Assembly (NCBI GenBank): GCA_019352035.1
Contig: JABBNZ010000002.1
Location: forward strand, 10,533-74,532
Length of the DNA stretch: 64,000 nt
Origin: Pseudomonadota bacterium
GTDB taxonomy: Bacteria > Pseudomonadota > Gammaproteobacteria > Steroidobacterales > Steroidobacteraceae
Reading direction: 5' to 3'
Under the pieces are notes generated by a model. That model worked only from the letters and a program-made list of their open reading frames with translations. It was not told where the DNA came from and made no database searches. Below are positions 5,361 to 33,788 of the stretch, piece after piece. The stretch's first letter is position 1, and the number at the start of each line of letters is the position of its first letter. A program made the translations under genes and the position numbers.

Positions 5361-6680
5361 TCAACGTTTGGCTCGCAGCAGCGCGATTCGATCCTGCATC
5401 CGATAACCGTGAATGATGGCCGGCATGAACCATGGGTTGCCACGATAAAACGGGATGGAGGCGGGCGGCCGGAAATCGAATGCCGTGCGCGCGCGATCAC
5501 CGTACCCCATCAGCTTATGGGCCGCGCGCGTACCGAGCCACGGAGCCCAGACCACGCCTGAGCCGCAGAACCCCGTCGCATACACAACTCCGTCCTTCTC
5601 GAAAAGGCGGGGTATCATGTCGCGATTCATCGCCACATTGCCGAACCAGCTGTGCGAAAGACGAACGTTCCCGAGTTCCGGGAAGAGGCTCACCAGTCCC
5701 TTGCGCAAAAGGAGCGTCGGCGCCGCCCGATCGCCGACACGGGAGCTGTCACGCCCTCCCAGCAGGACACGTTTGCCGTCGGGGGAAGGGCGGTAAAAGA
5801 AGCCCAGCTGGCGCCCTTCGGCCATCATCATCCGCTTCGGCAAGAGTCGCGCCATCAGTTCGGGCCCGAGCTCCTCGGTGGCAATGATCCGGGCGCGCAC
5901 CGGGACCAACCGGCGGCGGAGGAAGGGAATGGCGCCATCGGTGTACCCGTTCGTGCAAACCAGAACCTGTCGCGCCTGCACGGTCCCGGCTGAAGTCACC
6001 ACGCGGAACCCGGACGGCTCCCGGCGTAAAGACGTTACGCATGTGTTTGAATGGACCGTCACTCCCGAAGCGAGTGCCACCCGCAGGAGCTCCGCATGGA
6101 ACTTGGCGGGGTGCAGTCCGCCGATGTCCATCCGCACCGTGCCGCCGCGGTAGAAGTCGGTGCCGATATAGTGGTGTTGCTCCGCGTACGGCACGGCGTA
6201 AGACTCGATTCCGAGCTTCTTTGCCAGCGCCTCGGCGCTGCGCGCAATCCCTTCATATTGCCCATAGCCGATCGCGCCCTTGAACTGGCCGACCCGCTGG
6301 AATTCGCAATCGAGTCCTTCGGTCTTGATGAGGTCGTAGAGAAACTCGCGCGCGATCTTGCCTTCCCTCTCGATGGCGATCGCCATCTTCTCACCGAAGC
6401 GCCGGGCGATCGTGGCGAAGTCCGGCCGGATGGTCCCGCTGGTAACGCCGCCGTTACGCGTGGACGCGCCTTCGCCGGGGCTCATCGCGTCGAAAGCGGC
6501 CACCGCGCGACCCTCGCGCGCCAGCGTCAGCCCCGCCGCGAGCCCCGCGTAGCCTGCGCCAACGATGGCCACGTCGAGCTCCCTGGCCAGCGGCTGCCGC
6601 GACAATGGCTTGGGGGGAGCCGCTTCCCACCAGTAGGGCGTGCTTTTGTCGGCGATTTTGGGCTCGTGCGCGTAAGCCAC
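5361..6680 (-). CDS. FAD-dependent oxidoreductase, DadA/PuuB (gamma-glutamylputrescine oxidase-like) family
   Basis: DVAIVGAGYAGLAAGLTLARE dinucleotide-binding motif; ...VVYATGFCGSGVVWAPWLG; GTG start inferred at 6680, adjacent to the thrC stop. Confidence 0.85.
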   Translation of the reverse strand: MAYAHEPKIADKSTPYWWEAAPPKPLSRQPLARELDVAIVGAGYAGLAAGLTLAREGRAVAAFDAMSPGEGASTRNGGVTSGTIRPDFATIARRFGEKMAIAIEREGKIAREFLYDLIKTEGLDCEFQRVGQFKGAIGYGQYEGIARSAEALAKKLGIESYAVPYAEQHHYIGTDFYRGGTVRMDIGGLHPAKFHAELLRVALASGVTVHSNTCVTSLRREPSGFRVVTSAGTVQARQVLVCTNGYTDGAIPFLRRRLVPVRARIIATEELGPELMARLLPKRMMMAEGRQLGFFYRPSPDGKRVLLGGRDSSRVGDRAAPTLLLRKGLVSLFPELGNVRLSHSWFGNVAMNRDMIPRLFEKDGVVYATGFCGSGVVWAPWLGTRAAHKLMGYGDRARTAFDFRPPASIPFYRGNPWFMPAIIHGYRMQDRIALLRAKR

Positions 6681-6681
6681 G

Positions 6682-8022
6682 TCAATGATCCTCCGTGCCG
6701 TGCTGCCGCAGTGCATTGCGGAGCGAGGCGAGATCGGCCTCGATCTCCGTGGATGCGGTGGGTCGGGCGAACAGTTCGGTCAGCGATTGCGGCAAGGGCA
6801 CCCTCCGCCCGATCAGCGGCTCGACGATCTCCCGGAATTTCACCGGATGGGCCGTGGACACCAACACCCAGCGGCCGCTCTCGCGCCGCTCGCGCGGCAG
6901 ACGCGCGTACGCTTCGGCGGCGGTCGCTGTGTGTGGGCACCAGATCTGCCCGAGCTCCCTGTAGCCCGCGCGAATGCGCGCGCGGATCGCCTCATCGCCG
7001 ACGGTGCAAGCGCTGACGGCGCTTCGTATTTCGGTGAGGTCCGGATAGAGCGTGCGCAGACGCTCCATATTGCTTGGATTGCCAACATCCATTGCAGAAG
7101 CAAGTGTGGCAACGCTCGCCCGCGGACGCCAATCACCGGTCTCGAGGAAATCCGGCACCGTGCGGTTGGCGTTGTGCGCCAACACCACATTTCCGATCGG
7201 CAGTCCCAGCTCGCGAGCCCAGATGCAGGCCACCGCGTTACCGAGATTGCCGCTCGGCACGATGAAGCATGCACGTTCGCCATGAAGCCTCCACACCGAG
7301 AGGCTTGCCGCGGCGTAGTACACGATCTGCGGGAGCAATCGACCGAGATTGATGCTGTTGGCAGACGACAGCGCGCGCTCTCGCCGCCATTGGCGATCGA
7401 GAAACGCCTGCTTCACGAGCCGCTGGCAGTCGTCGAAGGTGCCGCGCACGGCAAACGATCGTACGTTGCCACCCCAACAGGTGAGCTGACGCTCTTGTGT
7501 CGGGGAGACGAGCCCCTTGGGAAAGAGCACCGCGACCTGGATGCCCGGTCGGTCGTGGAACGCCGCCGCGACGGCCGCGCCCGTGTCCCCCGAGGTGGCC
7601 ACGAGGACCGTCAACGGACGGGACGAGGGGCCGCGCAGACGGGCGAGGCAAGCGGCGAGAAAGCGGGCACCGAAATCCTTGAAGGCAGCAGTCGGACCAT
7701 GGAAGAGCTCCAGCACCGCCAGGCGTCCATTGGTGCCGAGGGGGACGACGGGCGCGGGGAAATCGAACGCCTCCGTGGTGATGGCGGAAAGCGATTGCGC
7801 GAGCGGACCGCCTTCGACGAATGGCGCGAGCAGATGGGTCCCCGTCTCCGCCAGACTCCCCCAAGGGCCCCCGGCACCCCCTGGGAAGCGCGGCCATTCG
7901 ACGGGCACATACAGACCGCCGTCCGGCGCCAGGCCCTGCTCCAGCGCCTCGCCGAATCCGGCGGTCAGCGTCTCATCACGCGTGCTCTTGAAGCGCATTT
8001 CTGTCAATTCCGCCCCCGACAT
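6682..8022 (-). CDS. thrC: Threonine synthase
   Basis: FHGPTAAFKDFGARFLA PLP-lysine motif, VATSGDTGAAVAAAF, PSGNLGNAVACIWARELGLPIG. Confidence 0.92.
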   Translation of the reverse strand: MSGAELTEMRFKSTRDETLTAGFGEALEQGLAPDGGLYVPVEWPRFPGGAGGPWGSLAETGTHLLAPFVEGGPLAQSLSAITTEAFDFPAPVVPLGTNGRLAVLELFHGPTAAFKDFGARFLAACLARLRGPSSRPLTVLVATSGDTGAAVAAAFHDRPGIQVAVLFPKGLVSPTQERQLTCWGGNVRSFAVRGTFDDCQRLVKQAFLDRQWRRERALSSANSINLGRLLPQIVYYAAASLSVWRLHGERACFIVPSGNLGNAVACIWARELGLPIGNVVLAHNANRTVPDFLETGDWRPRASVATLASAMDVGNPSNMERLRTLYPDLTEIRSAVSACTVGDEAIRARIRAGYRELGQIWCPHTATAAEAYARLPRERRESGRWVLVSTAHPVKFREIVEPLIGRRVPLPQSLTELFARPTASTEIEADLASLRNALRQHGTEDH

Positions 8023-8032
8023 CTAGACCCGC

Positions 8033-8995
8033 TCAACCGGACTCGATGAGCCTGGCGCCGTCCCCGCTGATGTCCACCAGCCACTCGTCGATGCTGAAGC
8101 AGGCCGCGGCGAACTCCCGCCGCATGGCCTCGAGCACCCCGTGCGCATCCGGGGCGAGCGCCCAGGCGAAGAGCGTGGGACCTGCCCCGGAGAGCGAGCA
8201 GCCAAGCGCGCCCGCCTGCATGGCCGCGAGACGCACCGCCTGGAAGCCCGGGATCAGCGCCTGGCGCTGCGGCTCGATGACGACGTCCTCGAAGGAGGAT
8301 CGGATCATGTCGAGATCGTTGGTATAGCAACCTGAGATGAACCCCGCGAGGTTGGCCGTCTGCCAGACAAAATCGGAGAGCTCGACGTCGCGCTTGAGGA
8401 TCGCGCGTGCCAGCCGCGTCGAGAGGAACATGTGCGGGTGCACGATGATGGCGCGAATCCCCTCGGGCACCGGGATCTGCGTCACCCGCGGATGATCGAT
8501 ACCGACCGTGAGGACGAGGCCGCCGAAGAGCGAGGGCGAGACGTTGTCGACGTGCAGGGATCCGCTCGCCGCTGCCTCGCCCTGCATCGCGAATTTCAGC
8601 AACGCGAGCTTCCCACAGGGATGCGGCAACAGCGCGTTGGCAGCGAGCACCGCACCTACAGCCGACGCCGCAGAGCCTCCGAGGCCGGAGCCGAGCGGAA
8701 CGCCCTTGTCGATACGCATCGCGAAGCCAAATCCCGGTTGCAGGGTTTTCAGCATCACGAGCAATGCGCGGCCGGCCGTGTTCTCCGCCGGGTCCATCGG
8801 AAGCTTGTCTGCGAACCCCGTGATGTCGGTGATCGTCACATCTTGCGTCTCGGTGCGGCTCACCGTGACGCGATCGCCCAGCGCTCCCACTGAGAACCCG
8901 AGGATATCGAAACCGACTGCCACATTGCCGACTGAGGCCGGAGCAAATGCGGTGGCCCACCGGGGACGGTCTGTAGCGGATCTGGTGCTAGACAC
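8033..8995 (-). CDS. thrB: Homoserine kinase (GHMP kinase family)
   Basis: ATAFAPASVGNVAVGFDILGFSV; PLGSGLGGSAASAVGAVLAANALL GHMP ATP-binding motif; CSLSGAGPTLFAWA. Confidence 0.92.
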   Translation of the reverse strand: MSSTRSATDRPRWATAFAPASVGNVAVGFDILGFSVGALGDRVTVSRTETQDVTITDITGFADKLPMDPAENTAGRALLVMLKTLQPGFGFAMRIDKGVPLGSGLGGSAASAVGAVLAANALLPHPCGKLALLKFAMQGEAAASGSLHVDNVSPSLFGGLVLTVGIDHPRVTQIPVPEGIRAIIVHPHMFLSTRLARAILKRDVELSDFVWQTANLAGFISGCYTNDLDMIRSSFEDVVIEPQRQALIPGFQAVRLAAMQAGALGCSLSGAGPTLFAWALAPDAHGVLEAMRREFAAACFSIDEWLVDISGDGARLIESG

Positions 8996-9321: not shown

Positions 9322-9352
9322 ACCAGCCCACCCGTGCAATCGTAAGACAGAC

Positions 9353-10231
9353 ATGAACAGATCCGTCCGCTTGCCCTTCTTCGAGCTGCTCGCGCAGGAC
9401 ATAGCAGATGTCGACGTGAAGCTCCTGCACGCGCTGTCGCTCGCAGTTGGCTGGTCATATCGGCCCAAGGATTGGGATCTTCTGCGCCGTGCCGGCAGTG
9501 GCCTTGTCGCTGTCGATGGTATTGGGCGCGTCTTTGGAAGCGCGATGTGGTTTCCCCATGGCGACGACTTCGCCACCATCGGTCTGGTGATCACGACCCC
9601 CCGAATCCAAGCGCAAGGAGGTGGCCGATGGCTCATGGAGCAGATCTTCGAGCAGTGCGGCAATCGCAGTTTGGCCCTCAATGCCACCCGTGCCGCTGAT
9701 CGTCTCTACGCTTCCCTCGGATTCACGAAGGAAGCGGTCGTGTATATGCGTCAGGGCACGGTCCCGCCGACGCTGCCGGCTACGCCGGCTTTGGACGGTG
9801 AACTGATTGCCCTATCGGGTGACGACATTGGACAAATAGCCGATCTGGATATGCGCGCATTTGGATCAGATCGCCGGAAGGTGCTCACCTTGCTCGCCCA
9901 AGATGCCTCAATCTGCGCGTTGAGACGCGGTGGCGAGATCGTCGGCTATTCCTTACGTCGCGAGTTCGGGCGTGGCCAGCTGGTCGGGCCTCTGGTCGCG
10001 CGGAATGATCAGGATGCGATCCATCTGGCAGCGGTGCATTTGAAGAACCTGACCGGGCAGTTCGCCCGCATCGATACGCGCGAAAGGGACGGCATCTTCG
10101 TCGAGTTCCTTCAGCGCAGTGGCCTCGATGTGGCCGATACCGTTACGACCATGTCCAAAGGGCGCCGATTTCTCAACCCGAAGGACCGCGAGCCGCGGGT
10201 CTATGGACTGGCGGGCCACGCATTGAGCTGA
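9353..10231 (+). CDS. Two-domain GNAT-family N-acetyltransferase (paralog 2)
   Basis: WSYRPKDWDLL...GRVFGSAMWFPHGDDFATIGLVITTPRIQAQGGGRWLMEQIFEQCGNRSLALNATRAADRLYASLGF; same architecture as paralogs 1 and 3. Confidence 0.83.
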   Translation: MNRSVRLPFFELLAQDIADVDVKLLHALSLAVGWSYRPKDWDLLRRAGSGLVAVDGIGRVFGSAMWFPHGDDFATIGLVITTPRIQAQGGGRWLMEQIFEQCGNRSLALNATRAADRLYASLGFTKEAVVYMRQGTVPPTLPATPALDGELIALSGDDIGQIADLDMRAFGSDRRKVLTLLAQDASICALRRGGEIVGYSLRREFGRGQLVGPLVARNDQDAIHLAAVHLKNLTGQFARIDTRERDGIFVEFLQRSGLDVADTVTTMSKGRRFLNPKDREPRVYGLAGHALS

Positions 10232-10386
10232 TGCCGGCAACCGTTGCCTTTCCAGGCGCGGCAAATCCGAGGATATTCTGATCAGGCGCAAACTCCGCAC
10301 GATACCGGGCGGACGGCGGACCAGGATACACATTGAGACTCGATAAACCATCGAGTTTGCCCGAGACAGCGTTGAGGAGTAACTCA

Positions 10387-11358
10387 TTGCCGGACGATGC
10401 TCAGCTCCTTCTGCTCGATGCGCAAACCGTGGAGCAGCTCCTAGAGCCCGCGGCGGTGTTTGAGGCCGTCAAACGAGCTTTCGCGCTCCATAGCCTGCGC
10501 GAGGGGCGGGTTTTTCCGGTTGTGCGGGAGCGACTTCACACGGGCGGCGTCTTCGGCATCAAGTCAGGAGATGTGCCGGCCGCGAATCTGCTTGGGTTCA
10601 AGGCGGCGGGCTTCTGGCCAAGCAACCGACAGGCTGGCAAAGAGCCGCATCAGGCGACGATTCTCCTGCTCGACCCCGGCACGGGCAGGCCTCTCTGCCT
10701 GATCGATGGAAACGCCGTAACCACCGCCCGTACCGGAGCGGCAGGCGCGCTGGGTTTGACGCTGCTCGCGCAGCCGACAAGCGCATCCTTATGTATATTC
10801 GGAACGGGTACGCAAGCACGAATCCAGCTCAGCCTCGCCTTGCGCCACATGACCGGAATTGAACAAGTCCGCTACCTGACAGTCGACGGACAACCGGACG
10901 GGACGTTCGAGAGAGCATTTGGACATTTGTGCGCGCTCGCTCACGCCCGGGACGCCGATACAGCCGTAAGCAGCAGTGACATTGTCGTGACTGCGACGCC
11001 CGGCGGCGGACCGCTATTCTCGCTCGAGGCAGTCCGAGCCGGTACGCACTTCAACTGCGTTGGCGCTGATACCAAGGGCAAGCGCGAGCTTCCAGAGGGC
11101 CTGCTGCGCCGATCTCGCCTCTATTGCGACGATCGTGAGCAGTCACGCTCGATCGGCGAAGGCCAATGGGATGCTGAGTCCCCCTCGATCGAGCTCGGCG
11201 ACATTCTGACCGGCAAGGTGAGGCTGGCCCGACAGCCGGGAGAGATCACGGTCTTCGACATGACCGGATTGGCTCTCCAGGATCTGGCGGTGGCGGAAAT
11301 GCTCTGGCAACAGGCCGCGGCCAGGGGCCTGGGAAAGATCGTGCCCTGGCCCTGGTGA
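10387..11358 (+). CDS. Ornithine cyclodeaminase / mu-crystallin family protein
   Basis: DGNAVTTARTGAAGALGLTLLAQ...LCIFGTGTQARIQLSLALRHM; likely TTG start at 10387 preceded by GAGGAG. The ORF track begins at 10333. Confidence 0.85.
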   Translation: MPDDAQLLLLDAQTVEQLLEPAAVFEAVKRAFALHSLREGRVFPVVRERLHTGGVFGIKSGDVPAANLLGFKAAGFWPSNRQAGKEPHQATILLLDPGTGRPLCLIDGNAVTTARTGAAGALGLTLLAQPTSASLCIFGTGTQARIQLSLALRHMTGIEQVRYLTVDGQPDGTFERAFGHLCALAHARDADTAVSSSDIVVTATPGGGPLFSLEAVRAGTHFNCVGADTKGKRELPEGLLRRSRLYCDDREQSRSIGEGQWDAESPSIELGDILTGKVRLARQPGEITVFDMTGLALQDLAVAEMLWQQAAARGLGKIVPWPW

Positions 11359-11430: not shown

Positions 11431-12876
11431 TCAGCTCCGAGGGGCGACCTGGCGGATTGCGGCACCGAATCGCCGGACACCCTCGACGATCTCAGGCTCT
11501 GACAGGTGTCCGTACGCCATCAGCATGCGCTCATCCGATCGCTGACCATGCTGGAAGTCGGCGACGCGATCCACGACGATGCCCGCGTGCTCCAATCGCG
11601 CGGCAAGCGCTTTCAGAGGGACCTCAGCGCGGAGTCTGACCACGACGTGCAGACCTGCAGCTTGTCCGGTGACGGACTGGACTTGCGGTATTTCGCTCAA
11701 CGCCTGCAGCATGGTCCCCCGGCGTTGTGCGTAGCTCCTGCGTACGCGCCGCACGTGCTTCTCGAGCTCACCCGAGCTGATCAGCCAGGCAATGATCCGC
11801 TGGGTGATGATGGACACGGAATCGCGTGCCTGCGCGACGAGCGCGGCCATCGCTTCAACCAAATCAGAACGGGTCACCACGAATCCGAGGCGGATCGCCG
11901 GGCTCAATACCTTCGAGAAGGTGCCAACGTAGGCGATGTGGTCGAATCCAGCCAAAGAGCCGAGTGCGGGCAGCGGAGCGGTTCCGTAGCGAAACTCCCC
12001 GTCATAGTCGTTTTCGATGATCAGAGTTCCGTTTTGTCGAGCCCACTGGATCAAGGAGTTGCGGCGCGCGGAGCTCAGCCGTCCGCCCAAGGGATACTGG
12101 TGGGACGTCGTGACGTGTATGAGCCTTATTTTACGCGTCGCGGCTTTCAGATAGTCGGTGTCGATTCCCTCGTCATCGACGGGAACAGCCATGAGGCGGG
12201 CGCCAAGGCGCTCGAAAATGCTTGCCGCACGCGGGTAACCGGGTTCCTCCGCGGCGGCGTTGTCCCCCTGACGCAGACACGCTTCTGCGATTCTCTCGAT
12301 GGCTCGCCCTGAGCCCGCTGTAATCATCACTTGATCCGGGTCGACCCGCATCGAGCGGGTACGACCCAGGTACATGGCGATCTGTGCCCGCAACCCGGCG
12401 TCGCCGCGGGGATCACCGTAGTCGCTGCCGGGCAAGTGTCGCCCCGCTTCGCGGCACGCGCGTCGCCATACCCTGATGGGCAATGGGCTCGGATCTGCAG
12501 AGCCCATTCGAAAATCGATCCCATCGGCCGGGCGGCGCGCCTCGGAACTCCGGCCTCGCGGCTTTGACCTTGCAGCGCGTGGAGCAGACTGCCGAGCAAG
12601 GTTGCATACGATGCTGCCCCTGCGGCCCCGAGTCTCTATCAAGCCCAGGCTCAGCAGCCGTTCAAAAGCCGCTACGACCGTATTGCGATTGAGGCCCAAG
12701 GCCAGCGCCAGCTCACGGCTGGGCGGGAGCTTAATGCCCGCGCTCAGTGCGCGCGAATCGATGAGCGCTTGCAGCTGATTTGCCAGCTGCAGATATCGAG
12801 GGGTGCCCGCATCGCCACTTACGACGATGGGCAAATCCGCGGCGTCGATCTCCTTTGGTTGCTCGCTTTTGGTCAT
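11431..12876 (-). CDS. MocR-like (GntR HTH + aminotransferase domain) PLP-dependent regulator
   Basis: N-terminal wHTH (KLPPSRELALALGLNRNTVVAAFERLLSLGLIETRGRRGSIV) followed by a class I aminotransferase-like domain (GTFSKVLSPAIRLGFVV). Confidence 0.93.
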   Translation of the reverse strand: MTKSEQPKEIDAADLPIVVSGDAGTPRYLQLANQLQALIDSRALSAGIKLPPSRELALALGLNRNTVVAAFERLLSLGLIETRGRRGSIVCNLARQSAPRAARSKPRGRSSEARRPADGIDFRMGSADPSPLPIRVWRRACREAGRHLPGSDYGDPRGDAGLRAQIAMYLGRTRSMRVDPDQVMITAGSGRAIERIAEACLRQGDNAAAEEPGYPRAASIFERLGARLMAVPVDDEGIDTDYLKAATRKIRLIHVTTSHQYPLGGRLSSARRNSLIQWARQNGTLIIENDYDGEFRYGTAPLPALGSLAGFDHIAYVGTFSKVLSPAIRLGFVVTRSDLVEAMAALVAQARDSVSIITQRIIAWLISSGELEKHVRRVRRSYAQRRGTMLQALSEIPQVQSVTGQAAGLHVVVRLRAEVPLKALAARLEHAGIVVDRVADFQHGQRSDERMLMAYGHLSEPEIVEGVRRFGAAIRQVAPRS

Positions 12877-12941: not shown

Positions 12942-14090
12942 GTGAAAATCGCCATCGTGACCGATGACCTGACGAGCGCCACCGACGGCGCGGCCGGCTT
13001 CGCGGAGCGAGCCTGGTCCGCGCGGGTGGTCCGTGGCACTTCCCTCAGCGCAAGCGCGAACACTGCCGACCTCGTCTCCGTCGATGTGGCAAGCCGCACT
13101 CGTACTCGCCAGCAAGCGATTTCTCGGGTGGACGCCGCGGGCATGGCCGTCGCGCATGCCGCTCTGGTGATCAAGCAATTCGATTCGACACTGCGCGGAC
13201 ATGTTGCTGCCGAAACACTTGCGCTGCTCCGAGCAACGAAAAGACGCCGCGCCATCGTGGCGCCGGCATTTCCGGCGGCGGGCCGAACGACGATCGGCGC
13301 GCGTCAGTTCGTGGATGGCATTCCGGTCCACGAGTCCGCTTATGCGGCTGATCCCCTCAACCCGGTGCGATCCAACGACATCAGGGCGCTGTTCGAACAG
13401 GAAGGCGTCGAGGTTGCCCGAAGTGAGGCGGATCGTGGCTGCGTGTTCATCCTCGACGGACAAACCGAAGCCGATCTGACCGCGATCGCCTCCCGGTACA
13501 TCGGACGCTCCGATCTGGTTCTTGCGGGATCGACAGGACTGATGCGGGCTCTTGCCCGCGTCAGCGAGCAAGGGTCTCATCGCGGCAGTACAGTGCCGCC
13601 TAGCCGCCGAGTGCTGATCGTCGTCGGCAGCATGAACGTTCGATCCCGCGAACAGCTCGCTGCGCTGCAGCCCACGGCGACACCGATATTTACGATCACG
13701 GCGGACACCGAGCTCGCATCAATGGCCGATGCCATTGGCAAGCAGTTTCGTTCGGGGGATGTCGTCGCCATCACCACATCCGCCGCGCCGGCGGACCCAC
13801 GACAGGTCGCGCAGCGATTGAGCCACGTCGTCGCTCACGTGATCGAAAAGGCGTTTGTCGACGCGCTCGTCGTCACGGGCGGTGACACTCTGGCGGAGAT
13901 TCTCGACCGTCTCGCCAGCGATTCCCTCCGTGTCTGCCGGGAGATCGAGCCCGGAATTCCTCTCTGCGTTCTCGATCAGCCCCGCGCGATCACGCTGATC
14001 ACCAAGGCGGGCGGCTTCGGCTCCGCAGATATTTTCCTCAAGGCACTGCATACGCTCCGAGGCGTGCAGGGGAAGGAGCTCGCGTCATGA
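12942..14090 (+). CDS. Four-carbon acid sugar kinase family (DUF1537), D-threonate/D-erythronate kinase-like
   Basis: VKIAIVTDDLTSATDGAAGFAERAW start motif and ALVVTGGDTLAEIL...GGFGSADIFLKAL C-terminal motif; GTG start at 12942 inferred (ATG at 12906 is an alternative). Confidence 0.85.
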   Translation: MKIAIVTDDLTSATDGAAGFAERAWSARVVRGTSLSASANTADLVSVDVASRTRTRQQAISRVDAAGMAVAHAALVIKQFDSTLRGHVAAETLALLRATKRRRAIVAPAFPAAGRTTIGARQFVDGIPVHESAYAADPLNPVRSNDIRALFEQEGVEVARSEADRGCVFILDGQTEADLTAIASRYIGRSDLVLAGSTGLMRALARVSEQGSHRGSTVPPSRRVLIVVGSMNVRSREQLAALQPTATPIFTITADTELASMADAIGKQFRSGDVVAITTSAAPADPRQVAQRLSHVVAHVIEKAFVDALVVTGGDTLAEILDRLASDSLRVCREIEPGIPLCVLDQPRAITLITKAGGFGSADIFLKALHTLRGVQGKELAS

Positions 14091-15091
14091 CCCTGCCGCT
14101 GGTCGCCATTACCATGGGCGATCCCGCCGGAATCGGTCCGGAGATCGTCGCGAAAGTGGCAGCGCAGCCGCAATTCCACCGCGATCACCGTGCGTTTGCC
14201 GTCGGCGATCCCGAACGCCTCGCCGCGGCAGCCCGGATGAACAATCTCCCGCTGCGCATCGAGCCACTCGTCGAGCTGGGGGATTTCTGGCCGCAGCCCG
14301 GCGTACTGCACGTACTTTCGGGGCCAAAGCTGCCCCCTGGTCTGCCTTACGGCCGCGTCGATCCGCGGGCCGGTCGCGCGGCCTTCGCCTATGTGCAGAG
14401 TGCGATCGCTTTGGCAAATTCGGGGCAGATCCATGCGATCTGTACCGCACCGATAAACAAAGAGGCGCTCGCATCCGCCGGCGTCGCGTATCCCGGCCAC
14501 ACCGAAATGCTCGCAGAGCTGTCCGGTTCGAGCGAAGTGGCCATGATGCTCGTCTCGTCGGAGCTGCGGGTGGTGCTCGTGACCATCCACTGCTCGCTGC
14601 GTGAGGCCATCGAGCAGTTGTCGATCGACGCGGAGCTGCGCGTGATTCGCCTGGCTCATAAGGCGTTGCGCACGATGGGATTTCCCAACCCTCGCATGGC
14701 CATCGCGGGATTGAACCCGCACGCGAGCGAGGGTGGACTGTTCGGGCGTGAGGACATCGACATAGTCGCTCCTGCCGTGCGGACAGCGCGCGCCGAAGGT
14801 ATCGACATCACCGGCCCGCATCCGGCAGATACCATCTTCATGCTCGCGCGGCGTGGGGCTTACGACATCGTCGTCGCCCAGTACCATGATCAAGGCCTGA
14901 TACCCATCAAATTCATGGGAGTGGAACACGGCGTCAACGTGACGATCGGTCTCCCATTCATCCGGACGAGCCCGGATCACGGCACCGCGTTCGACATCGC
15001 CGGCAGCGGGGTGGCCGATGCGAGCAGTCTCCAGCTCGCCCTCGATACAGCGCGTGACCTGTCCCGGGTCGCGGCGAAAGGATATGAATGA
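14087..15091 (+). CDS. PdxA family 4-hydroxythreonine-4-phosphate / D-threonate-4-phosphate dehydrogenase
   Basis: LPLVAITMGDPAGIGPEIVAKV; AQYHDQGLIPIKFMGVEHGVNVTIGLPFIRTSPDHGTAFDIAG. ATGA overlap with the upstream kinase favours a PdxA2-type catabolic role. Confidence 0.92.
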   Translation: MTLPLVAITMGDPAGIGPEIVAKVAAQPQFHRDHRAFAVGDPERLAAAARMNNLPLRIEPLVELGDFWPQPGVLHVLSGPKLPPGLPYGRVDPRAGRAAFAYVQSAIALANSGQIHAICTAPINKEALASAGVAYPGHTEMLAELSGSSEVAMMLVSSELRVVLVTIHCSLREAIEQLSIDAELRVIRLAHKALRTMGFPNPRMAIAGLNPHASEGGLFGREDIDIVAPAVRTARAEGIDITGPHPADTIFMLARRGAYDIVVAQYHDQGLIPIKFMGVEHGVNVTIGLPFIRTSPDHGTAFDIAGSGVADASSLQLALDTARDLSRVAAKGYE

Positions 15092-15759
15092 CCCACTTCA
15101 TTCTGATGTTGACGAAAGATGACCGCACTGTGTCCAAGGCCGCGGCGATCTATGAAGAAGTGCGGGACACCAAGGTAAGTCACGTGGGCTTCAAGGACAT
15201 CGGCCTGCCGCTTGATGAAATGAAAGAACTTGCCGCGCGGATACGCGCCGACGGTCGCCGCATGATGCTGGAGGTGGTCAGTACGAGCCGGGAGGCCGAG
15301 CTGCGCTCGATACGCGCGGCCATCGAGATCGGAGTCGATTACCTGCTCGGTGGTCGTCACGCCTCGGATGCCCTGCCGCTTCTGGCTGGGACGTCCATTC
15401 GTTACTTTCCGTTTTGCGGCAATACCGTCGGACACCCCACCTGCCTCGAAGGCACAATCGACGAAATCGTGGCTGACGCTCGCCGGCTCGCTGCATTGCC
15501 GGGAATTGACGGCCTGGATCTCCTCAGCTACCGGTTTGCGGGAAACGCAGAGGAACTGACACGGCGAGTCGTGGATGCCGTGCAGACGCCCGTGATCGCC
15601 GCCGGAAGCATCGATCGCCCGGAACGCGTGCGCGCCGTCTGCGATGCAGGCGTATGGGGCTTTACTGTCGGCAGTGCGCTCTTCGAAGGCAAATTCGCAA
15701 CTGACTTCTTCAAGCAGCAGGTTCGCTCGCTCGTGCGCTTCGAGGGGGCTTCCCAGTAA
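15088..15759 (+). CDS. Uncharacterised TIM-barrel protein (HisA/NanE-like fold) coupled to PdxA
   Basis: PVIAAGSIDRPERVRAVCDAGVWGFTVGSALFEGKF phosphate-binding-like end of a beta/alpha barrel; ATGA overlap with pdxA. Confidence 0.65.
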   Translation: MTHFILMLTKDDRTVSKAAAIYEEVRDTKVSHVGFKDIGLPLDEMKELAARIRADGRRMMLEVVSTSREAELRSIRAAIEIGVDYLLGGRHASDALPLLAGTSIRYFPFCGNTVGHPTCLEGTIDEIVADARRLAALPGIDGLDLLSYRFAGNAEELTRRVVDAVQTPVIAAGSIDRPERVRAVCDAGVWGFTVGSALFEGKFATDFFKQQVRSLVRFEGASQ

Positions 15760-15767
15760 CGGCACGC

Positions 15768-16910
15768 CTAAGAACGCGAGTGGGCACCTGTGGCGAGGCG
15801 CGCACCGAGGTCCTCCATCATCCTCTGGCACGCCGTCAGCTCGCTGATCTCGACGCATTCGTTCGGACGATGGGCATGTGCGATGTCGCCGGGACCGCAG
15901 ATGATCGCATCGATGCCCGCCTGCTGATATAGGCCGGCCTCCGTGCCGTAGCTTACCGCTCGCAGCGGCTCCCGCCCCGTCAGCTCGAGCAGAAGGGCGT
16001 TCAATCCACTCTCCTGGGCAAGCGAAAGCCCAGGATAGGTGCTCAACTCGCGCCATCCGACTTCGAACCCGCTCTCGCGAAGGGCGGCCAACTGGGCCTT
16101 CAGCGGCTCCAGCAGGGCTGACGGGGAGAGTCCCGGGATCGCGCGGAGCTCGATGTCAGCGATGCAACGGTCGGGAATGATGTTCACCGCCTGACCGCCC
16201 CCAATTACGCCAACCTGCAGCGAAGAATACGGAGGCGCGAAGTCATGGTCGAGAGGGCCGTTTGTGAGGGACTGGGCGTAAGCCGCTACATGCATGACCA
16301 CCCCTGCCATGGCGTGAATGGCATTGAGTCCCAGATCCGGGCGCGAGGAGTGTCCGGATCGCCCGATCACCTCGAGGCGCACGGCTGCCTTGCCCTTGTG
16401 TGCCCGCACCGCGCGCATCCCGCTCGGCTCACCGATGATGGCGCCGAGCGGCCGCTCGCAGAGACTCGGCAGCACCTCGAGCAGATGCGGCACGCCGCGC
16501 GCACCTGCCTCCTCGTCGTAGGAGAACGCAAGGTGGATGGGCCGCTTGAGGCTCATGGCTGCGAATTTGGGTAACGCGGCCAACGCGCAGGCGAGAAAGC
16601 CCTTCATGTCGGCTGTGCCCCGACCGTAGAGCTTGCTGCCCTCGCGGCGCAGCGCGAAAGGATCGGACCGCCACTCCTGCTCTGCGGCGGGTACCACATC
16701 CATATGGCCGGACAGTACGTATCCGCGGCCTGCGCGGGGTCCGATCGTCGCGAACAGATTGGACCGGTCGCCCTCGGGTCCCGGATGAACGGTGACCTCG
16801 GCTCCCGCCGCCTGGCAGTACTCGCGTATCCATTCGACCATCGCGCCGTTCGGTGTACCGACGACCGTGGGGAACGAGATGAGCTTAGCCAGAATGTCTG
16901 CGAGAGTCAT
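15768..16910 (-). CDS. M20 family metallopeptidase, acetylornithine deacetylase-like
   Basis: GYVLSGHMDVVPA, LYGRGTADMKGFLACALAAL, YDEEAGARGVPHLL metal-site motifs; GTEAGLYQQAGIDAIICGPG. Confidence 0.9.
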   Translation of the reverse strand: MTLADILAKLISFPTVVGTPNGAMVEWIREYCQAAGAEVTVHPGPEGDRSNLFATIGPRAGRGYVLSGHMDVVPAAEQEWRSDPFALRREGSKLYGRGTADMKGFLACALAALPKFAAMSLKRPIHLAFSYDEEAGARGVPHLLEVLPSLCERPLGAIIGEPSGMRAVRAHKGKAAVRLEVIGRSGHSSRPDLGLNAIHAMAGVVMHVAAYAQSLTNGPLDHDFAPPYSSLQVGVIGGGQAVNIIPDRCIADIELRAIPGLSPSALLEPLKAQLAALRESGFEVGWRELSTYPGLSLAQESGLNALLLELTGREPLRAVSYGTEAGLYQQAGIDAIICGPGDIAHAHRPNECVEISELTACQRMMEDLGARLATGAHSRS

Positions 16911-16990: not shown

Positions 16991-18901
16991 TCATCGACGG
17001 TTCGCCGGCTGATGACAGAGGATCTGCGCACCCTGTTGCGTGCGATTGAGGGGCGGCGGCTGCTGGTCGCATCTGCCCTCAATCCGCACGGGACAGCGGG
17101 GCAGAAAGCGGCACAGGTCCTTCGAAGAGGCGGTTGCCGGCATTGCGGGTCCCGGGCTTGCGCTCGCGACACCCTCGAGCCAGTCGCTGCGCAACTCCGG
17201 GACGCTCGAAACGAGAAGCCTCGTGTAAGGATGGCAATTCGCAGCGTCGAGGCGTTGCAGCGGACCGGTCTCGACCGTCTGGCCGGCGTAAAGCACGGCT
17301 ACCTCGTCACAAATCGCACGTACCGCCCCGACGTCGTGGGTGATCAGGACATAAGAGAGACCCAATTCACGACGCAGCTCCGCCAGCAGGTCGAGGATGG
17401 CGGCCCCGACGACGGCATCCAGCGCGGAGGTCACTTCGTCGCAGAGGATGAGGTCCGGCTGCGCGGCCAAGGCCCTGGCGAGATTGACCCGCTGCTTCTG
17501 ACCGCCGGAGAGCTCGGGAGGCCGGCGTGCGGCAATTGAGCGGTCAAGGTGCACCACATCGAGCAGATGCGCGATGCGCTCATCGCGAGCGGCACCCCGC
17601 AGGCCAAAGTAGAGCTTCAAAGGCCGGCCAAGGATGTGTGCAACGGTGTGCGCGGGATTCAATGCGGCATCCGCGTGCTGAAAGACGATCTGAATGCGCC
17701 GGAGCTGCTCGCGCGAGCGCCTCTCCATGCGCGGCTCGAGCAGCTCGCCCTGGAGCCGGATGGTGCCGCGCGCCGGCGCCATGATGCCGGCCAGCACGCG
17801 TGCCAGGGTGGATTTTCCAGAGCCGGACTCGCCGATCACCCCGAGCGCGGCACCGCGCCTCACCGCAAGCGAGATGTCCAGGAGTGCCAGGCTGCTGGGC
17901 AGACCCTGGTCATTCGCCTTTCCATAACCCGCGGTCAATCCTTCCACCGCGAGCAACAACTGCCTTCGGTTGTCCTCGCCGGGCGGCCGGGAACTTGCGC
18001 CGCTCGTGGCGACGACAGGCTCCTGCGCAACGCTCTGGGCGACCCGTCTCGCAACCGCGCTGAGCAGTGTCCGCGTGTAGGCGTCTCTCGGCGCACCGAG
18101 TACCTGCATCGTCGGCCCTGACTCCCGCACCTGCCCGGAATTGAGTACCACGACGCGATCGGCAATTTGCGCGACGACCGCCAGGTCATGCGCCACGTAG
18201 AGGGCCGTGGCGCGCCGCTCGCCGATCACCCGTTTGAATGCCCGCAGCACTTCGATCTGGGTCGTGACATCGAGCGCCGTGGTCGGCTCATCGAGGATGA
18301 CGAGCTCGGGATCCGACATCAGTGCCATGGCCGCCAGCAATCGCTGCAGCTGTCCGCCGGAGAGCTGATGCGGATAGCGCGCGCCGATGTGCTGCGGGTC
18401 GGGAAGCGCGAGCGAACGGAACAGGGTCACTGCCTTCTCCCGCGCCGCGGAGCCTGTCATCAGTCGGCGAATCATCGTGGTCTCGATGACCTGGTCCATG
18501 ATGCGCCGGGCGGGATTGAATGCCGCGGCGGCGCTCTGAGCGATGTAGGCGACACGCCGCCTGCGGTGCTCGAGAATCTCGCGGGGTCGGAGCGAGAGCA
18601 CATCAGTGCCGCAGACCTCGATCGAGCCGCCCGAGATCCGGCAGCCGGCACGGGTATGCCCCATGAGCGACAGCGCCACCGTGGTCTTGCCCGAGCCGGA
18701 CTCGCCGATCAGGGCCAGGACCTCCCCGCGGGCGATCGCGAAGCTCACGTCGTTCACGAGCACGCTCGGTGTGCCGGGGCTGCCCGCGACGACCCGCAGG
18801 TTTTTGACGAGGACCTGGGGGTGATTGTCCGCCGAGCTTTCGGCCGCAGCCCCTGCGCCATTGCGGGCCGCCTGTGCACGCCGGCCAGAGTGAAGACTCA
18901 T
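16991..18901 (-). CDS. Dipeptide/oligopeptide ABC transporter, fused double ATP-binding protein (DppD-DppF type)
   Basis: Two Walker A motifs (GESGSGKTTVALSLMG; GESGSGKSTLARVLAG), two ABC signatures (LSGGQLQRLLAAMAL; LSGGQKQRVNLARAL) and a C-terminal Cys-rich oligopeptide segment (CRFLPRCPVRIEGRCDQQPP). Confidence 0.95.
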   Translation of the reverse strand: MSLHSGRRAQAARNGAGAAAESSADNHPQVLVKNLRVVAGSPGTPSVLVNDVSFAIARGEVLALIGESGSGKTTVALSLMGHTRAGCRISGGSIEVCGTDVLSLRPREILEHRRRRVAYIAQSAAAAFNPARRIMDQVIETTMIRRLMTGSAAREKAVTLFRSLALPDPQHIGARYPHQLSGGQLQRLLAAMALMSDPELVILDEPTTALDVTTQIEVLRAFKRVIGERRATALYVAHDLAVVAQIADRVVVLNSGQVRESGPTMQVLGAPRDAYTRTLLSAVARRVAQSVAQEPVVATSGASSRPPGEDNRRQLLLAVEGLTAGYGKANDQGLPSSLALLDISLAVRRGAALGVIGESGSGKSTLARVLAGIMAPARGTIRLQGELLEPRMERRSREQLRRIQIVFQHADAALNPAHTVAHILGRPLKLYFGLRGAARDERIAHLLDVVHLDRSIAARRPPELSGGQKQRVNLARALAAQPDLILCDEVTSALDAVVGAAILDLLAELRRELGLSYVLITHDVGAVRAICDEVAVLYAGQTVETGPLQRLDAANCHPYTRLLVSSVPELRSDWLEGVASASPGPAMPATASSKDLCRFLPRCPVRIEGRCDQQPPPLNRTQQGAQILCHQPANRR

Positions 18902-19803
18902 GCCTTGCCCCCGCCACCCTCCGGTCGGCCATGGTCAGCCAACCCATCGATCAGCAGGTTGACACCTATGGTGAGCGTAGCGACGGCAATGGCCGGTAGC
19001 AGCACGGCGGCTGCGCCATCGCCCAGTCCGGAGAGGTTCTCGCGGATCAGCGAGCCGAGGTCGGCCGCGGGGGGTTGAACGCCGAGACCGAGGAAACTGA
19101 GCCCGCTCAACATCAGCACGATAAACATGAACCGCAGGCCGAAGTCGGCCAGCATGGGGTGAACCATGTTGGGCAGTATTTCGACGCAGGCGATGTGCAG
19201 GCGTCCTTCACCGCGCACTCGGGCCGCCTCAACGTAATCCGAGACGCTCAGGTTCACGGCCAGGGAGCGCGCGATGCGGAACGCGCCGGCCACATAGCCC
19301 AACGCCGCCGTGAGCAGCAGAATAGGCAGGGAAGAGCCGAATACCGCCACCATGATCAATGCGAAGATCATGCTCGGAATGCAAATGAGTGCATCGAGCA
19401 GGCGGCTCAGGAGCTCATCCACCCATCGGCCGCTGATCGCGGCGAGCAGGCCGAGCACCGTGCCGGTGGCGCTGGCCGCGACCGCCGCGGCGAGCGCCAG
19501 GCCGACCGTATAGCGGGCGCCGATCAGGATGCGGCTCAGCATATCGCGCCCCAGATAATCCGTCCCCAGCGGGAACCGAAGGCTCATGGGCGCAAACACC
19601 GTGGTGCTGACGACCGCTCCCGGCGGATGTGGAATGACCCAGGGCCCGAGTAATGCCAGGAGTGCCCAAAAGAGGACCAGCGCGAGTCCGATGCGGCCCG
19701 AGGCGGGCAGCGCATTGCGCCGGCGGCGCCACCGTGCTGGAGAAAGCCAGCCAGGGCTTGCCGCAAGCTCGGAACGGGCCTTCGGGGTGGCGGGTGAATT
19801 CAC
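18898..19803 (-). CDS. Dipeptide ABC transporter permease, DppC-like
   Basis: FPLGTDYLGRDMLSRILIGARYTVGLALAA; LSGLSFLGLGVQPPAADLGSLI; GTG start at 19803 overlapping the upstream permease stop. Confidence 0.93.
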   Translation of the reverse strand: MNSPATPKARSELAASPGWLSPARWRRRRNALPASGRIGLALVLFWALLALLGPWVIPHPPGAVVSTTVFAPMSLRFPLGTDYLGRDMLSRILIGARYTVGLALAAAVAASATGTVLGLLAAISGRWVDELLSRLLDALICIPSMIFALIMVAVFGSSLPILLLTAALGYVAGAFRIARSLAVNLSVSDYVEAARVRGEGRLHIACVEILPNMVHPMLADFGLRFMFIVLMLSGLSFLGLGVQPPAADLGSLIRENLSGLGDGAAAVLLPAIAVATLTIGVNLLIDGLADHGRPEGGGGKA

Positions 19804-20753
19804 GGCCGGCGCAGCTTCGGATTCGAGACGATGGCGCAGATATCCGCGATCAGCACCAATCCCAGGTACGCGGCCAGGAAAATCATCGCGCAAGCCTGCA
19901 GCAGCGGCATGTCACGGTAACTTACCGCGTCCACCATCAGCCGGGCGAGGCCGGGGTAATCGAAGATGGTCTCGACGATGATCGTGCCGCCCAGAAGATA
20001 CGACAAGCTGAGCGCGATGGCATTGGCGATCGGTCCGACCGCATTTGGCAGTGCATGGGTCAGCACGACCCTCGCGGAGCCGACGCCCTTCAGTGCCGCC
20101 ATCTCGGCATAAGGCTGACTGAGCTGATCAATGACGGCGGCTCGGGTCATGCGTGCCATCTGCGCCGTTACAACGAAGCACAGCGAGAGCACCGGTAAGG
20201 CATAGCTGCGCAGAAATTCGAGTGGGGTCGGGTGATCGAGCACGAACGTCAGCGCGGACAGCCACTGCAGCTTCACGGCAAAGATCAACACGCCCGCGGT
20301 CGCAACCAGGAACTCGGGAACCGCCACCATCGCGAGGGTGGTGGTGCTGAGCGCCCGGTCGAGCCAAGACCCGCGATACATGGCCGCAAGAATGCCGAGC
20401 GTGAGCGCGAACGGCACCGAAACCACCGTCGTTGCGGCTGCGAGCAGGAGCGACTGCGGCAGGCGCTTACTGATGATCGCGCTCACCGGCAGTCCATTCG
20501 AATACGAGTAGCCAGGGTGCCCAGTGAGCAGGCCGCCCAGCCAATGGAGGTAGCGCCACAGGACGGGCTGGTCCAGCCCGAGCCTCGCGCGCAGTGCCGC
20601 GACCGCGGCCGCCGTGGCGTTCTGTCCGAGTGCCGCCTGGGCGGCATCTCCCGGTAGAAGCGATGTGATCGTGAAGATGATGATCGAGACGAGCAGCAGC
20701 GTCAGCGCCGCCGCCGCCATCCGCTTGAGGATGAGTTGCAGCGTCACCCGCAT
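19800..20753 (-). CDS. Dipeptide ABC transporter permease, DppB-like
   Basis: MRVTLQLILKRMAAAALTLLLVSIIIFTI; GYSYSNGLPVSAIISKRLPQSLLLA; GGTIIVETIFDYPGLARLMVDAVSYRDMPLLQ. Confidence 0.95.
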   Translation of the reverse strand: MRVTLQLILKRMAAAALTLLLVSIIIFTITSLLPGDAAQAALGQNATAAAVAALRARLGLDQPVLWRYLHWLGGLLTGHPGYSYSNGLPVSAIISKRLPQSLLLAAATTVVSVPFALTLGILAAMYRGSWLDRALSTTTLAMVAVPEFLVATAGVLIFAVKLQWLSALTFVLDHPTPLEFLRSYALPVLSLCFVVTAQMARMTRAAVIDQLSQPYAEMAALKGVGSARVVLTHALPNAVGPIANAIALSLSYLLGGTIIVETIFDYPGLARLMVDAVSYRDMPLLQACAMIFLAAYLGLVLIADICAIVSNPKLRRP

Positions 20754-20798
20754 CGTGAATGCGCTCCTTGGAATGAAACCGATGACTTCGGCGCGAAT

Positions 20799-22370
20799 TT
20801 ACTCATCGAGCCACACGTACTCGGCGAAGTTATAACCCATGAGGCCGCCGATCGGAATGGGAAAGTAGCCTCTGAGCCGCCGGTCGGAGGCATCGATGAA
20901 GTTGATGAATGCGGGAATGCCGACGCCGCCGCAGTCGTGTACCAGTCTTTGCATCTCCCAATACATCTCCTTGCGCCGGGCTTCATCCCGCTCGGAGCGG
21001 GACGCCAGCAGCAACGCGTCGAAGCGCGAATTCTTCCATCCGGACTCATTCCAGGGTGAATTGGATCTGAAGAACAGGCTGAACAGCATGTCGACGGTCG
21101 GCCGCGGATTGATGTTGCCGAAGGTGAGCCGGTGCTTCATCCAGCAGTTGGACCAATATCCGTCCGGGGGTACCCGGTCTACGTGCAGGTCAAGTCCGGC
21201 ATGCATGGCGGACTCTTGAAGCAGCGTCGCAATGTCCACCGAGTATTCTGCCGCGGGCGAGGCGAAGACGGCGAGACGCGTCCGGGGGAGGCCTGCCTTG
21301 CGGAGCAGAAAGCGCGCTCTGTCCGGGTCGTACCTCCTCTGTGGAATATCGGGGCAGTAATAGCGGCTGCTCGGCGGCACGGGCTGATCGTTGCCGAGCA
21401 CTGCATGACCGAGAAAAACCGCCTGCAGGATCTCATCGCGATCGAGCAGGTGTTTCATCGCCAGCACGAATTCCGGGCTGTCGGTAGGGCTGGCATCCTG
21501 GCGCATGATGAGATCGGTGTACTGCCCGGACTGCGTTTCGTGAATCGTATGGCCGGACGATGAACGGATGCGTTGAAGCGAGCGGGGGTTGACTCCGTTG
21601 ATCAACTGCACATCGCCCGCCAGCATCGCGTTGACGCGCGAGGACTCATCGCTGATCCCGATGAGCTCGATTTCCTCGAGATACGGTTTGCCCGGCTTCC
21701 AGTAATTCGGATTGCGTCGGCCGAGGGTGCGCACGCCGGGGTTGAAATCGACGCACCGGTAGGGTCCCGTGCCGATGCCGGTGCGGAAGTCCGTGGTTCC
21801 GTTCTGAATGATGAGGAAGTGCGAATCGGCGAGGATGACGGGCAGATCGACATTCGGCGCGGCGAGCCGGATCTGCACCTCGCGCGGGCCGGTCGCCCGA
21901 ACGTCCGCGAACTGGCTGGCAATCGCCAATACCTGCGAGCCGGTCGCAGGGTCTTTCAGACGCGACAGCGTATAGACGACGTCCTCGGGCATCAACGGCT
22001 TGCCGTCGTGGAACTCGACGCCTTGGCGCAGCTTTACGGTCCAGAGCGTCGCGTCGCCGCTGTCGATGGTGACCGCCAGTCCCGGCTGTGCAGACAGCCG
22101 TGAATCGAATTGAGTCAGCCCGCTGTAGATCATGTAGTGGCGCGCATAGTCGGTCGACAGCGCGCCCTTGGCTGGATCCAATGTGTCAGCGATCGAGCTC
22201 GATACGCTGGAGACGCGAATCCGTCCGCCTTTCCTGGGTGTTTCCGCCCCGGCGAGGCCGAAACGGCCGGTCGCGGCCAGCGCACCGGCGGCCGCGAACC
22301 CATGCAGCACCTGCCGGCGCTTCAGGTCGGCCGCTTGCCGGATGGCGTCCCGGGGTTGGTGGTATTTCAT
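20799..22370 (-). CDS. ABC transporter substrate-binding protein, family 5 (dipeptide-type), Tat-like signal
   Basis: Start set at internal ATG MKYHQPRDAIRQAADLKRRQVLHGFAAAGALAATGRFGLAGA (twin-Arg); ...GVEFHDGKPLMPEDVVYTLSRLKDP typical SBP_bac_5. Confidence 0.93.
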   Translation of the reverse strand: MKYHQPRDAIRQAADLKRRQVLHGFAAAGALAATGRFGLAGAETPRKGGRIRVSSVSSSIADTLDPAKGALSTDYARHYMIYSGLTQFDSRLSAQPGLAVTIDSGDATLWTVKLRQGVEFHDGKPLMPEDVVYTLSRLKDPATGSQVLAIASQFADVRATGPREVQIRLAAPNVDLPVILADSHFLIIQNGTTDFRTGIGTGPYRCVDFNPGVRTLGRRNPNYWKPGKPYLEEIELIGISDESSRVNAMLAGDVQLINGVNPRSLQRIRSSSGHTIHETQSGQYTDLIMRQDASPTDSPEFVLAMKHLLDRDEILQAVFLGHAVLGNDQPVPPSSRYYCPDIPQRRYDPDRARFLLRKAGLPRTRLAVFASPAAEYSVDIATLLQESAMHAGLDLHVDRVPPDGYWSNCWMKHRLTFGNINPRPTVDMLFSLFFRSNSPWNESGWKNSRFDALLLASRSERDEARRKEMYWEMQRLVHDCGGVGIPAFINFIDASDRRLRGYFPIPIGGLMGYNFAEYVWLDE

Positions 22371-22682
22371 CGATTCGGCGCAGGCGATCGGCTCGAGATG
22401 GGGATATCTTGCAGCGCGCGGCGAATGCAGGCCAGCGGCAAGGCGCATGCGCCGCCACAGAAAACGCCATTTTACTGGGGATCGCCGGCACGGACTGCCG
22501 TGCACCGGTGCGAGACTCGTGCGGGTGCGTCCGCCGACAGGGCCGCGGCAGAAAATTCCACCTGACCGTGAAGAACGCAATGACGTTCGTCCGCAGCGGC
22601 ATTCTGCGGGAGACCCGGCCGGCCCGGCCTCACTAGTATGCATCCATCCGCCAAGGGGCGTCCGCAGAGCCGGTATCGCATC

Positions 22683-24063: not shown

Positions 24064-25155
24064 GTGGCCGGCCGCTGGCGCATCGCAGTCATTCCGGGCG
24101 ACGGCATCGGCAAGGAGGTGATGCCCGAGGGGTTACGCGTGCTCGGGGCCGCGGCGCGGCGATTCGGCATCCAGCTCGAGCTCTGCGAATTCGAGTGGGC
24201 GAGCTGCGATTACTACGCGCGCACCGGGTCGATGATGCCCGAAGACTGGAAGGCACGACTCGCCGGCGTGGACGCGATCTATTTCGGGGCCGTGGGCTGG
24301 CCGGCCACGGTGCCCGATCATATCTCGCTCTGGGGCTCGATCCTCGCGTTCCGGCGCGAGTTCGACCAGTACGTCAATCTACGGCCGGTGCGCGCCTTCG
24401 ACGGCGTGCCCTGTCCTCTGGCCGGCCGCATCGCCGCCGACATCGATTTCCTGGTCGTGCGCGAGAACACCGAAGGCGAATATTCCGACGTCGGCGGCGT
24501 GATGTTCCGGGGCACGCCGCGCGAAGTGGTCGTGCAGCAGTCGATCTTCACCAGGCACGGCACCGAGCGGATCTTGAGGTATGCATTCGAGCTGGCGCGC
24601 CGGCGAAGGAGACGGCATCTCACCGTGGCTACCAAGAGCAACGGCATGGCGGTGAGCATGCCGTGGTGGGACGCAAGAGCGGCGGAGGTGGCGCGCGACT
24701 ATCCCGAGGTCGGCTGGGACAAGCAGCACATCGATATTCTCTGCGCACGCTTCGTGCTGCAACCGCAGCGGTTCGATGTCGTAGTGGCCTCGAATCTGTT
24801 CGGCGACATCCTCTCGGACCTGGGCCCGGCATGCACAGGCACCATCGGTCTCGCGCCTTCGGCGAACCTCAACCCGGAGCGCATATACCCGTCGCTCTTC
24901 GAGCCGGTGCATGGCTCTGCGCCCGACATCTACGGCCGCAACATCGCCAATCCCGTCGCCATGATCTGGTCGGGCGCCATGATGCTCGATTTCCTGGGCG
25001 GCGCCGACGGTCCGGCACGGGACGCGCACGATGCGATTGTTGCCGCGATCGAAGATGTACTGGCATCCGGTCCGCGCACACCGGATCTGGGAGGCACGGC
25101 CTCGACCGCTGATGTCGGACAGGCGATCGCGGCACGAGTGGAGGGCGGTGTATGA
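24064..25155 (+). CDS. Isocitrate/isopropylmalate dehydrogenase family, tartrate/D-malate dehydrogenase-like
   Basis: WRIAVIPGDGIGKEVMPEGL; FLVVRENTEGEYSDVGG; FEPVHGSAPDIYGRNIANPVAMIWSGAMMLDFLG. GTG start at 24064 directly after the aminotransferase. Confidence 0.9.
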   Translation: MAGRWRIAVIPGDGIGKEVMPEGLRVLGAAARRFGIQLELCEFEWASCDYYARTGSMMPEDWKARLAGVDAIYFGAVGWPATVPDHISLWGSILAFRREFDQYVNLRPVRAFDGVPCPLAGRIAADIDFLVVRENTEGEYSDVGGVMFRGTPREVVVQQSIFTRHGTERILRYAFELARRRRRRHLTVATKSNGMAVSMPWWDARAAEVARDYPEVGWDKQHIDILCARFVLQPQRFDVVVASNLFGDILSDLGPACTGTIGLAPSANLNPERIYPSLFEPVHGSAPDIYGRNIANPVAMIWSGAMMLDFLGGADGPARDAHDAIVAAIEDVLASGPRTPDLGGTASTADVGQAIAARVEGGV

Positions 25156-33773: not shown

Positions 33774-33788
33774 TCAGAGACATTCAAC

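Follow-up and report, generated by a model that had tools for sequence, protein, structure and literature searches.

Kinases of the DUF1537 family, together with the dehydrogenase PdxA2, form a described pathway for D-threonate and D-erythronate catabolism (Zhang et al. 2016, as cited in PMC9997740 and PMC7954711). DUF1537 proteins have also been reported, in the account given by PMC7954711, to phosphorylate 4-hydroxythreonine and so provide the substrate of PdxA; in the salvage route cited there (Thiaville et al. 2016), the product feeds PdxJ. Here, we analyzed a locus in a 64,000-nucleotide stretch of a Steroidobacteraceae contig (the window), where the same two enzyme families are encoded side by side. 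It differs from the DUF1537/PdxA2 pathway in having an overlapping gene for a TIM barrel, a kinase outside the named equivalogs, an amino-acid-type neighborhood, and MocR or LysR regulation. A kinase and then PdxA acting on 4-hydroxythreonine would yield the same intermediates as the salvage route, but the barrel there is PdxJ, whereas here another barrel is coupled to PdxA.

Kinase, PdxA, and barrel genes

The three genes are tandem open reading frames (ORFs) at window positions 12942 to 15759, joined by two ATGA junctions that can be read directly from the sequence:

12942..14090, + strand: DUF1537 (four-carbon acid sugar kinase family) kinase, GTG start (PF07005, 112.9 bits; PF17042, 76.7 bits)
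14087..15091, + strand: PdxA-family NAD-dependent 3-hydroxy-acid 4-phosphate dehydrogenase/decarboxylase (TIGR00557, 372.9 bits; cutoff, 290)
15088..15759, + strand: ribulose-phosphate-binding barrel, 223 amino acids (conserved residues, predicted fold)

The overlaps reported in the initial annotation (14087-14090 and 15088-15091) are present and span 4 bases each. Its description of the barrel as "fused-in-operon" was loose, as the window genes overlap but are not fused. The kinase ORF opens at a TTG (12780); because the Pfam domains match only from residue 57 onward (about 12948), the GTG at 12942 (MKIAIVTDDL), which had been proposed as the start, is a sensible choice and the most likely one.

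Both kinase domains, SBD_N and NBD_C (PF07005 and PF17042), exceeded the Pfam cutoffs, placing the protein in the DUF1537 family. It scored far below the NCBIfam cutoffs for D-threonate kinase (its best NCBIfam model; 166 versus 450 bits) and 3-oxo-tetronate kinase (114 versus 350 bits). The second protein belongs to the PdxA family (PF04166 and TIGR00557 cutoffs passed) and fails the cutoff of the NCBIfam D-threonate 4-phosphate dehydrogenase model (PRK03371; 321.6 versus 583 bits). Its nearest solved relatives are 4jqp, 6e85 (D-threonate 4-phosphate dehydrogenase), and 2hi1, and alignment to 4jqp showed that the GHTE, NPHA, and YHDQG motifs are kept. This PdxA is the second copy in the genome (the other is at G000:C65), and PdxJ is encoded elsewhere in the genome.

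The barrel has a known fold but appears to be a new family

Pfam and NCBIfam contained no full-length family model for the barrel. Matches were confined to C-terminal residues 152 to 203, where His_biosynth scored 27.3 bits (cutoff, 23.6) and NanE and others fell below their cutoffs; scanning 32 barrel homologs returned the same partial phosphate-barrel matches. Invariant or nearly invariant positions are T9, D12, T14, GFKDxG (34 to 39), E62, Y106, H116, and R149, and the phosphate motifs AG (172 to 173) and FTxG (192 to 195) are also conserved. Such a pattern is as expected of an enzyme. The AlphaFold model (pLDDT, 95; pTM, 0.92) is a (beta/alpha)8 barrel in which strands 7 and 8 form the predicted phosphate site, and this places it in the ribulose-phosphate-binding barrel superfamily. 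The suggestion that this is an uncharacterized phosphate-binding TIM barrel is borne out by both the model and the restricted family matches.

Foldseek searches with the model returned only generic ribulose-phosphate-binding barrels (TM score, 0.6 to 0.7; 12 to 20% identity), namely, RPE, OMPDC, PcrB, TenI, HisA, TrpA, and NanE, with ribulose-phosphate 3-epimerase at the top and no close solved relative among them. On this ground, the barrel probably represents a new family of a known fold. It shares the fold and the C-terminal phosphate site with HisA/HisF, NanE, RPE, and PcrB but lacks a full-length match to them and has residues of its own (GFKDxG, E62, Y106, and GHP). Assignment to HisA or HisF was rejected: the match covers 52 of 228 positions (the shared phosphate-site segment), and HisA equivalogs gave 33 versus 243 bits. 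We likewise rejected PdxJ or a replacement for it, given the lack of a PF03740 match and the separate PdxJ gene. In public records, the plasmid-borne homologs in loci L003, L004, and L008 are named 4-hydroxythreonine-4-phosphate dehydrogenase; this is likely a misannotation, as these barrels contain no PdxA domain.

Linkage to PdxA is conserved

To survey the neighborhoods, we gathered homologs from plasmids, one Aquabacterium contig, and sampled genomes. Barrel matches occurred in 2 of 369 genomes sampled in the same class and in 12 of 399 in the phylum, and the distribution is therefore patchy. Among the 43 loci compared (an uneven sample, with several closely related rhizobial loci and, in L017, a PdxA that looks damaged or unannotated), PdxA lies directly upstream of the barrel on the same strand in 20, spread over alpha-, beta-, and gammaproteobacteria. 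The DUF1537 kinase precedes PdxA in 16 of these 20, with a 4-base kinase/PdxA overlap in 13 of the 16, and the remaining loci (L003, L011, L029, and L070) have PdxA without the kinase. In 19 loci, the barrel follows PdxA at a spacing of between -8 and +21 bases. In L029 (8595 to 10406, oriented), the two form one uninterrupted ORF of 603 amino acids.

The expectation that the linkage would prove conserved in such a survey held, and the linkage is not unique to this genome; nor did the homologs turn out to have an assigned unrelated activity. We rejected the idea that the trio is an accident of this window, as we found this gene order in three proteobacterial classes and, in one genome, as a gene fusion. 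Judged from sequence, the barrel is a predicted, real, and conserved third enzyme coupled to PdxA within the DUF1537/PdxA2 arrangement.

Some individual loci differed in context. In L008 (9714 to 15950), the kinase-PdxA-barrel genes adjoin hydroxyectoine uptake and degradation genes (ehu/eut), and hydroxyectoine is a further compound from which a 3-hydroxy C4 amino acid could come. A Rhizobium plasmid (L012) carries, at 8986 to 9693, an apparently frame-damaged barrel copy with dihydroxyacetone kinase and threitol dehydrogenase genes nearby. In Staphylococcus warneri, a divergent plasmid-borne homolog (38%; L010, 8995 to 9657) lies between IS257 copies, and its neighbors, a HAD-VanW protein and PutP, are uninformative.

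Barrel homologs occur in two fusion clades

The survey newly showed two clades of fused barrels. Fifteen homologs, mostly of one family (f223), carry a C-terminal methylglyoxal synthase (MGS)-like domain:

MGS-fused barrel loci (n = 15): L021, L023, L024, L040, L041, and L049 to L058

The domain is supported by PF02142 (32.5 bits in L024) and by matches to PDB methylglyoxal synthases (2e-26 in L052). The GGDQQ motif, which carries the catalytic Asp (Asp71 in Escherichia coli), is kept, and in all 15 the AHD motif that comes next has lost its His (His98) to another residue. MGS activity may therefore be altered. Another clade comprises eight homologs with Cupin_2 after the barrel; in L003, the cupin is a separate next gene. 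The known substrate of MGS is the C3 keto-phosphate dihydroxyacetone phosphate (DHAP), and the MGS and cupin fusions point to a C3 keto-phosphate, a PdxA-type product, as the barrel substrate.

In the tree, the MGS fusion clade reflects one event (support, 100/99) and stands beside a PdxA-linked clade (95/94). PdxA-linked sequences hold the deep branches, a reading limited by long branches and midpoint rooting. The MGS-fused barrels have no neighboring PdxA; 11 of the 15 genomes hold only a single PdxA, and 6 of the 15 lack a DUF1537 kinase. An all-against-all ORF comparison found no conserved partner in this clade besides a PdxK-like kinase, directly upstream in 7 of 15 loci. Without a PdxA partner, the substrate in these bacteria must arise elsewhere, from the canonical PdxA or the PdxK-like kinase. 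A third clade (B2) is found near ABC importers and DeoR regulators. One B2 homolog adjoins a glycerol-1-phosphate-dehydrogenase-like gene, and another (L036) adjoins a PrpB-like gene and shows no C3 phosphate link. Because C3 phosphate metabolism is common to most of these contexts, we propose a C3 keto-phosphate as the compound on which the barrel acts.

The trio lies in an island for amino-acid fragment catabolism

Around the trio, window positions 2298 to 35114 form a 33-kb island for the catabolism of amino-acid fragments (bits are given as score of cutoff):

2298-2801: Lrp/AsnC regulator
5361..6716, - strand: FAD amine oxidase, pipecolate-oxidase-like (NF050086, 135.7 of 600 bits)
6682..8022, - strand: threonine synthase ThrC (TIGR00260, 246 of 167 bits)
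8033..8995, - strand: homoserine kinase ThrB (NF002288, 328.7 of 194 bits)
9353..10231, + strand: GNAT acetyltransferase (PF18014)
10333..11358, + strand: ornithine-cyclodeaminase (OCD)-family imine reductase, BhcD-like (PF02423; NF045643, 205.7 of 500 bits, below cutoff)
11431..12876, - strand: divergent MocR-type regulator, GntR plus aminotransferase-like (PdxR model NF052282, 399.8 of 320 bits)
15768..16910, - strand: M20 deacylase, acetylornithine-deacetylase (ArgE) type (TIGR01892, 467 of 298 bits)
16991..22400, - strand: peptide/opine-type (Dpp) ABC importer (homology to rhizobial Dpp genes; PF00496)
22638..24062, + strand: class-III aminotransferase (NF004625, 828.9 of 729 bits)
24073..25155, + strand: tartrate/D-malate dehydrogenase family (TIGR02089, 530 of 470 bits)
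25152..26636, + strand: succinate-semialdehyde dehydrogenase-like aldehyde dehydrogenase (TIGR01780, 635.7 of 646 bits)
27515..28186, + strand: type-II HAD hydrolase (3smv/8ywo, 7.4e-26; TIGR01428 above cutoff)
31289..32470, + strand: DSD1-type PLP aldolase/dehydratase, hydroxyaspartate aldolase-like (PF01168 and PF14031; NF045642, 121.7 of 690 bits)
32496..35114, + strand: two more FAD amine oxidases (DAO), from 32496 and 33789 (PF01266; NCBIfam matches below cutoff)

The importer consists of fused ATPases, two permeases, and a solute-binding protein (SBP_bac_5), and homology of the tartrate/D-malate dehydrogenase begins at residue 95 of a longer ORF. The ThrB-ThrC pair is accessory, with another ThrB at G000:C149. 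The island also holds a 2-hydroxyacid dehydrogenase and a bicupin, and it has three GNATs, two aldehyde dehydrogenases, and three FAD amine oxidases in all. In rhizobia and Bradyrhizobium, the same suite surrounds the trio, there accompanied by LtaE or DSD1 aldolases, RidA, and Lrp. Many of the gene families are shared with rhizobial plasmid islands in a different order, and the island may have moved horizontally. No typical sugar-acid gene was found among the trio neighbors.

Possible roles of the barrel

In general terms, the barrel probably performs the step that comes next in degrading an uncommon C4 amino acid or sugar acid. Our best explanation, to which we give about an even chance, is that the trio is one catabolic unit in which 4-hydroxythreonine would be converted to its phosphate and then to 3-amino-2-oxopropyl phosphate, on which the barrel would act. 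The kinase would phosphorylate the 4-hydroxyl of a C4 hydroxy acid, with 4-hydroxythreonine or a stereoisomer favored, and PdxA would oxidize C3 and decarboxylate to give a C3 keto-phosphate (3-amino-2-oxopropyl phosphate, or DHAP from an acid sugar). The barrel would then turn the PdxA product into a usable triose phosphate by the enol or enamine chemistry typical of ribulose-phosphate-binding barrels; the simplest reaction would be a reverse Amadori step, in which the amino ketone shifts to an aldimine and ammonia is lost. We infer the position after PdxA, the substrate, and the reaction alike. If DUF1537 makes 4-hydroxythreonine phosphate, 3-amino-2-oxopropyl phosphate would be the natural product and, unlike DHAP, would need a disposal enzyme of its own. 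To our knowledge, this reactive intermediate is known only as a vitamin B6 precursor. Our best reading agrees with the proposal that the barrel processes what PdxA releases or defines a variant pathway. Against it stand the MGS-fusion genomes, where the barrel has no PdxA partner, the conserved His missing from every MGS domain, and the dehydrogenase-like neighbor in clade B2, which suits DHAP better than an amino ketone.

In a rival account, the kinase and PdxA2 would convert D-threonate- or D-erythronate-type acids to DHAP, as initially annotated, with the barrel using DHAP (as an isomerase or aldolase) or serving as an accessory. The MGS fusion and the B2 neighbor both suggest DHAP, D-threonate kinase is the best-scoring kinase model, and D-threonate-4-phosphate dehydrogenases are the closest solved structures to PdxA. 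We nevertheless consider this route, as first proposed, somewhat unlikely: neither enzyme reaches its equivalog cutoff, DHAP requires no dedicated, conserved third enzyme, and the neighborhood (Lrp/AsnC, FAD amine oxidases, OCD, RidA, LtaE/DSD1 aldolase, GNAT, and peptide ABC genes) is one of amino-acid rather than sugar-acid catabolism. The island therefore favors the 4-hydroxythreonine route over the one from D-threonate to DHAP. An epimerase or isomerase acting between the kinase and PdxA, setting the stereochemistry for the latter, would fit the Foldseek ranking of ribulose-phosphate 3-epimerase and the presence of the NanE epimerase there. Such a role is unlikely in view of the barrel's C-terminal fusion to PdxA, the four loci with PdxA and barrel but no kinase, and the C3 product suggested by the MGS fusion. 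We give very little chance to a trio that feeds 4-hydroxythreonine into pyridoxal-phosphate synthesis with the barrel replacing PdxJ: a PdxR-type MocR regulator adjoins the trio and seven MGS-fused homologs follow a PdxK-like kinase, but PdxJ and another PdxA are already encoded in the genome, and the island is catabolic.

Possible plant-derived substrates

Chelators of the nicotianamine/mugineic-acid type are expected to yield four fragments: homoserine, malate semialdehyde, azetidine-2-carboxylate, and a C4 unit with 2-amino and 3-hydroxy groups. The gene content of the island would suit a substrate of this kind. A joint reading, decidedly unlikely as a whole, is that the barrel is a new family consuming 3-amino-2-oxopropyl phosphate and that the island degrades azetidine-containing chelators of this type. 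Amine oxidases would cleave C-N bonds, and the HAD hydrolase would open azetidine-2-carboxylate. The aminotransferase, semialdehyde dehydrogenase, and malate-type dehydrogenase would finish malate-semialdehyde units, ThrB/ThrC would take homoserine, and the 2-amino-3-hydroxy C4 unit would pass to the kinase, PdxA, and barrel or to the aldolase. A phytosiderophore (mugineic-acid type) source is speculative. In the open-access literature, we found nothing relevant on genes for mugineic-acid, nicotianamine, or 3-amino-2-oxopropyl-phosphate catabolism.

Azetidine-2-carboxylate is detoxified via an acetyltransferase and a HAD in fungi and Pseudomonas (PMC8016842). The best solved relative of the window HAD is the L-azetidine-2-carboxylate hydrolase (3smv/8ywo), and an aminotransferase and an aldehyde dehydrogenase are encoded alongside, but here the HAD is embedded in a far larger island. 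The azetidine assignment, drawn from nearest solved relatives, is speculative, and weaker for the rhizobial HAD copies, whose closer matches are chains labeled haloacid dehalogenase.

The trio recurs in many soil and plant-associated bacteria, and it poses a concrete question for the unassigned barrel family, namely, whether the barrel acts on the C3 keto-phosphate released by PdxA. If so, the DUF1537/PdxA2 pathways would gain a step and a branch, the public dehydrogenase names of the barrel homologs would be corrected, and the genetics of unusual plant amino acid breakdown in rhizobia and their relatives could be opened.
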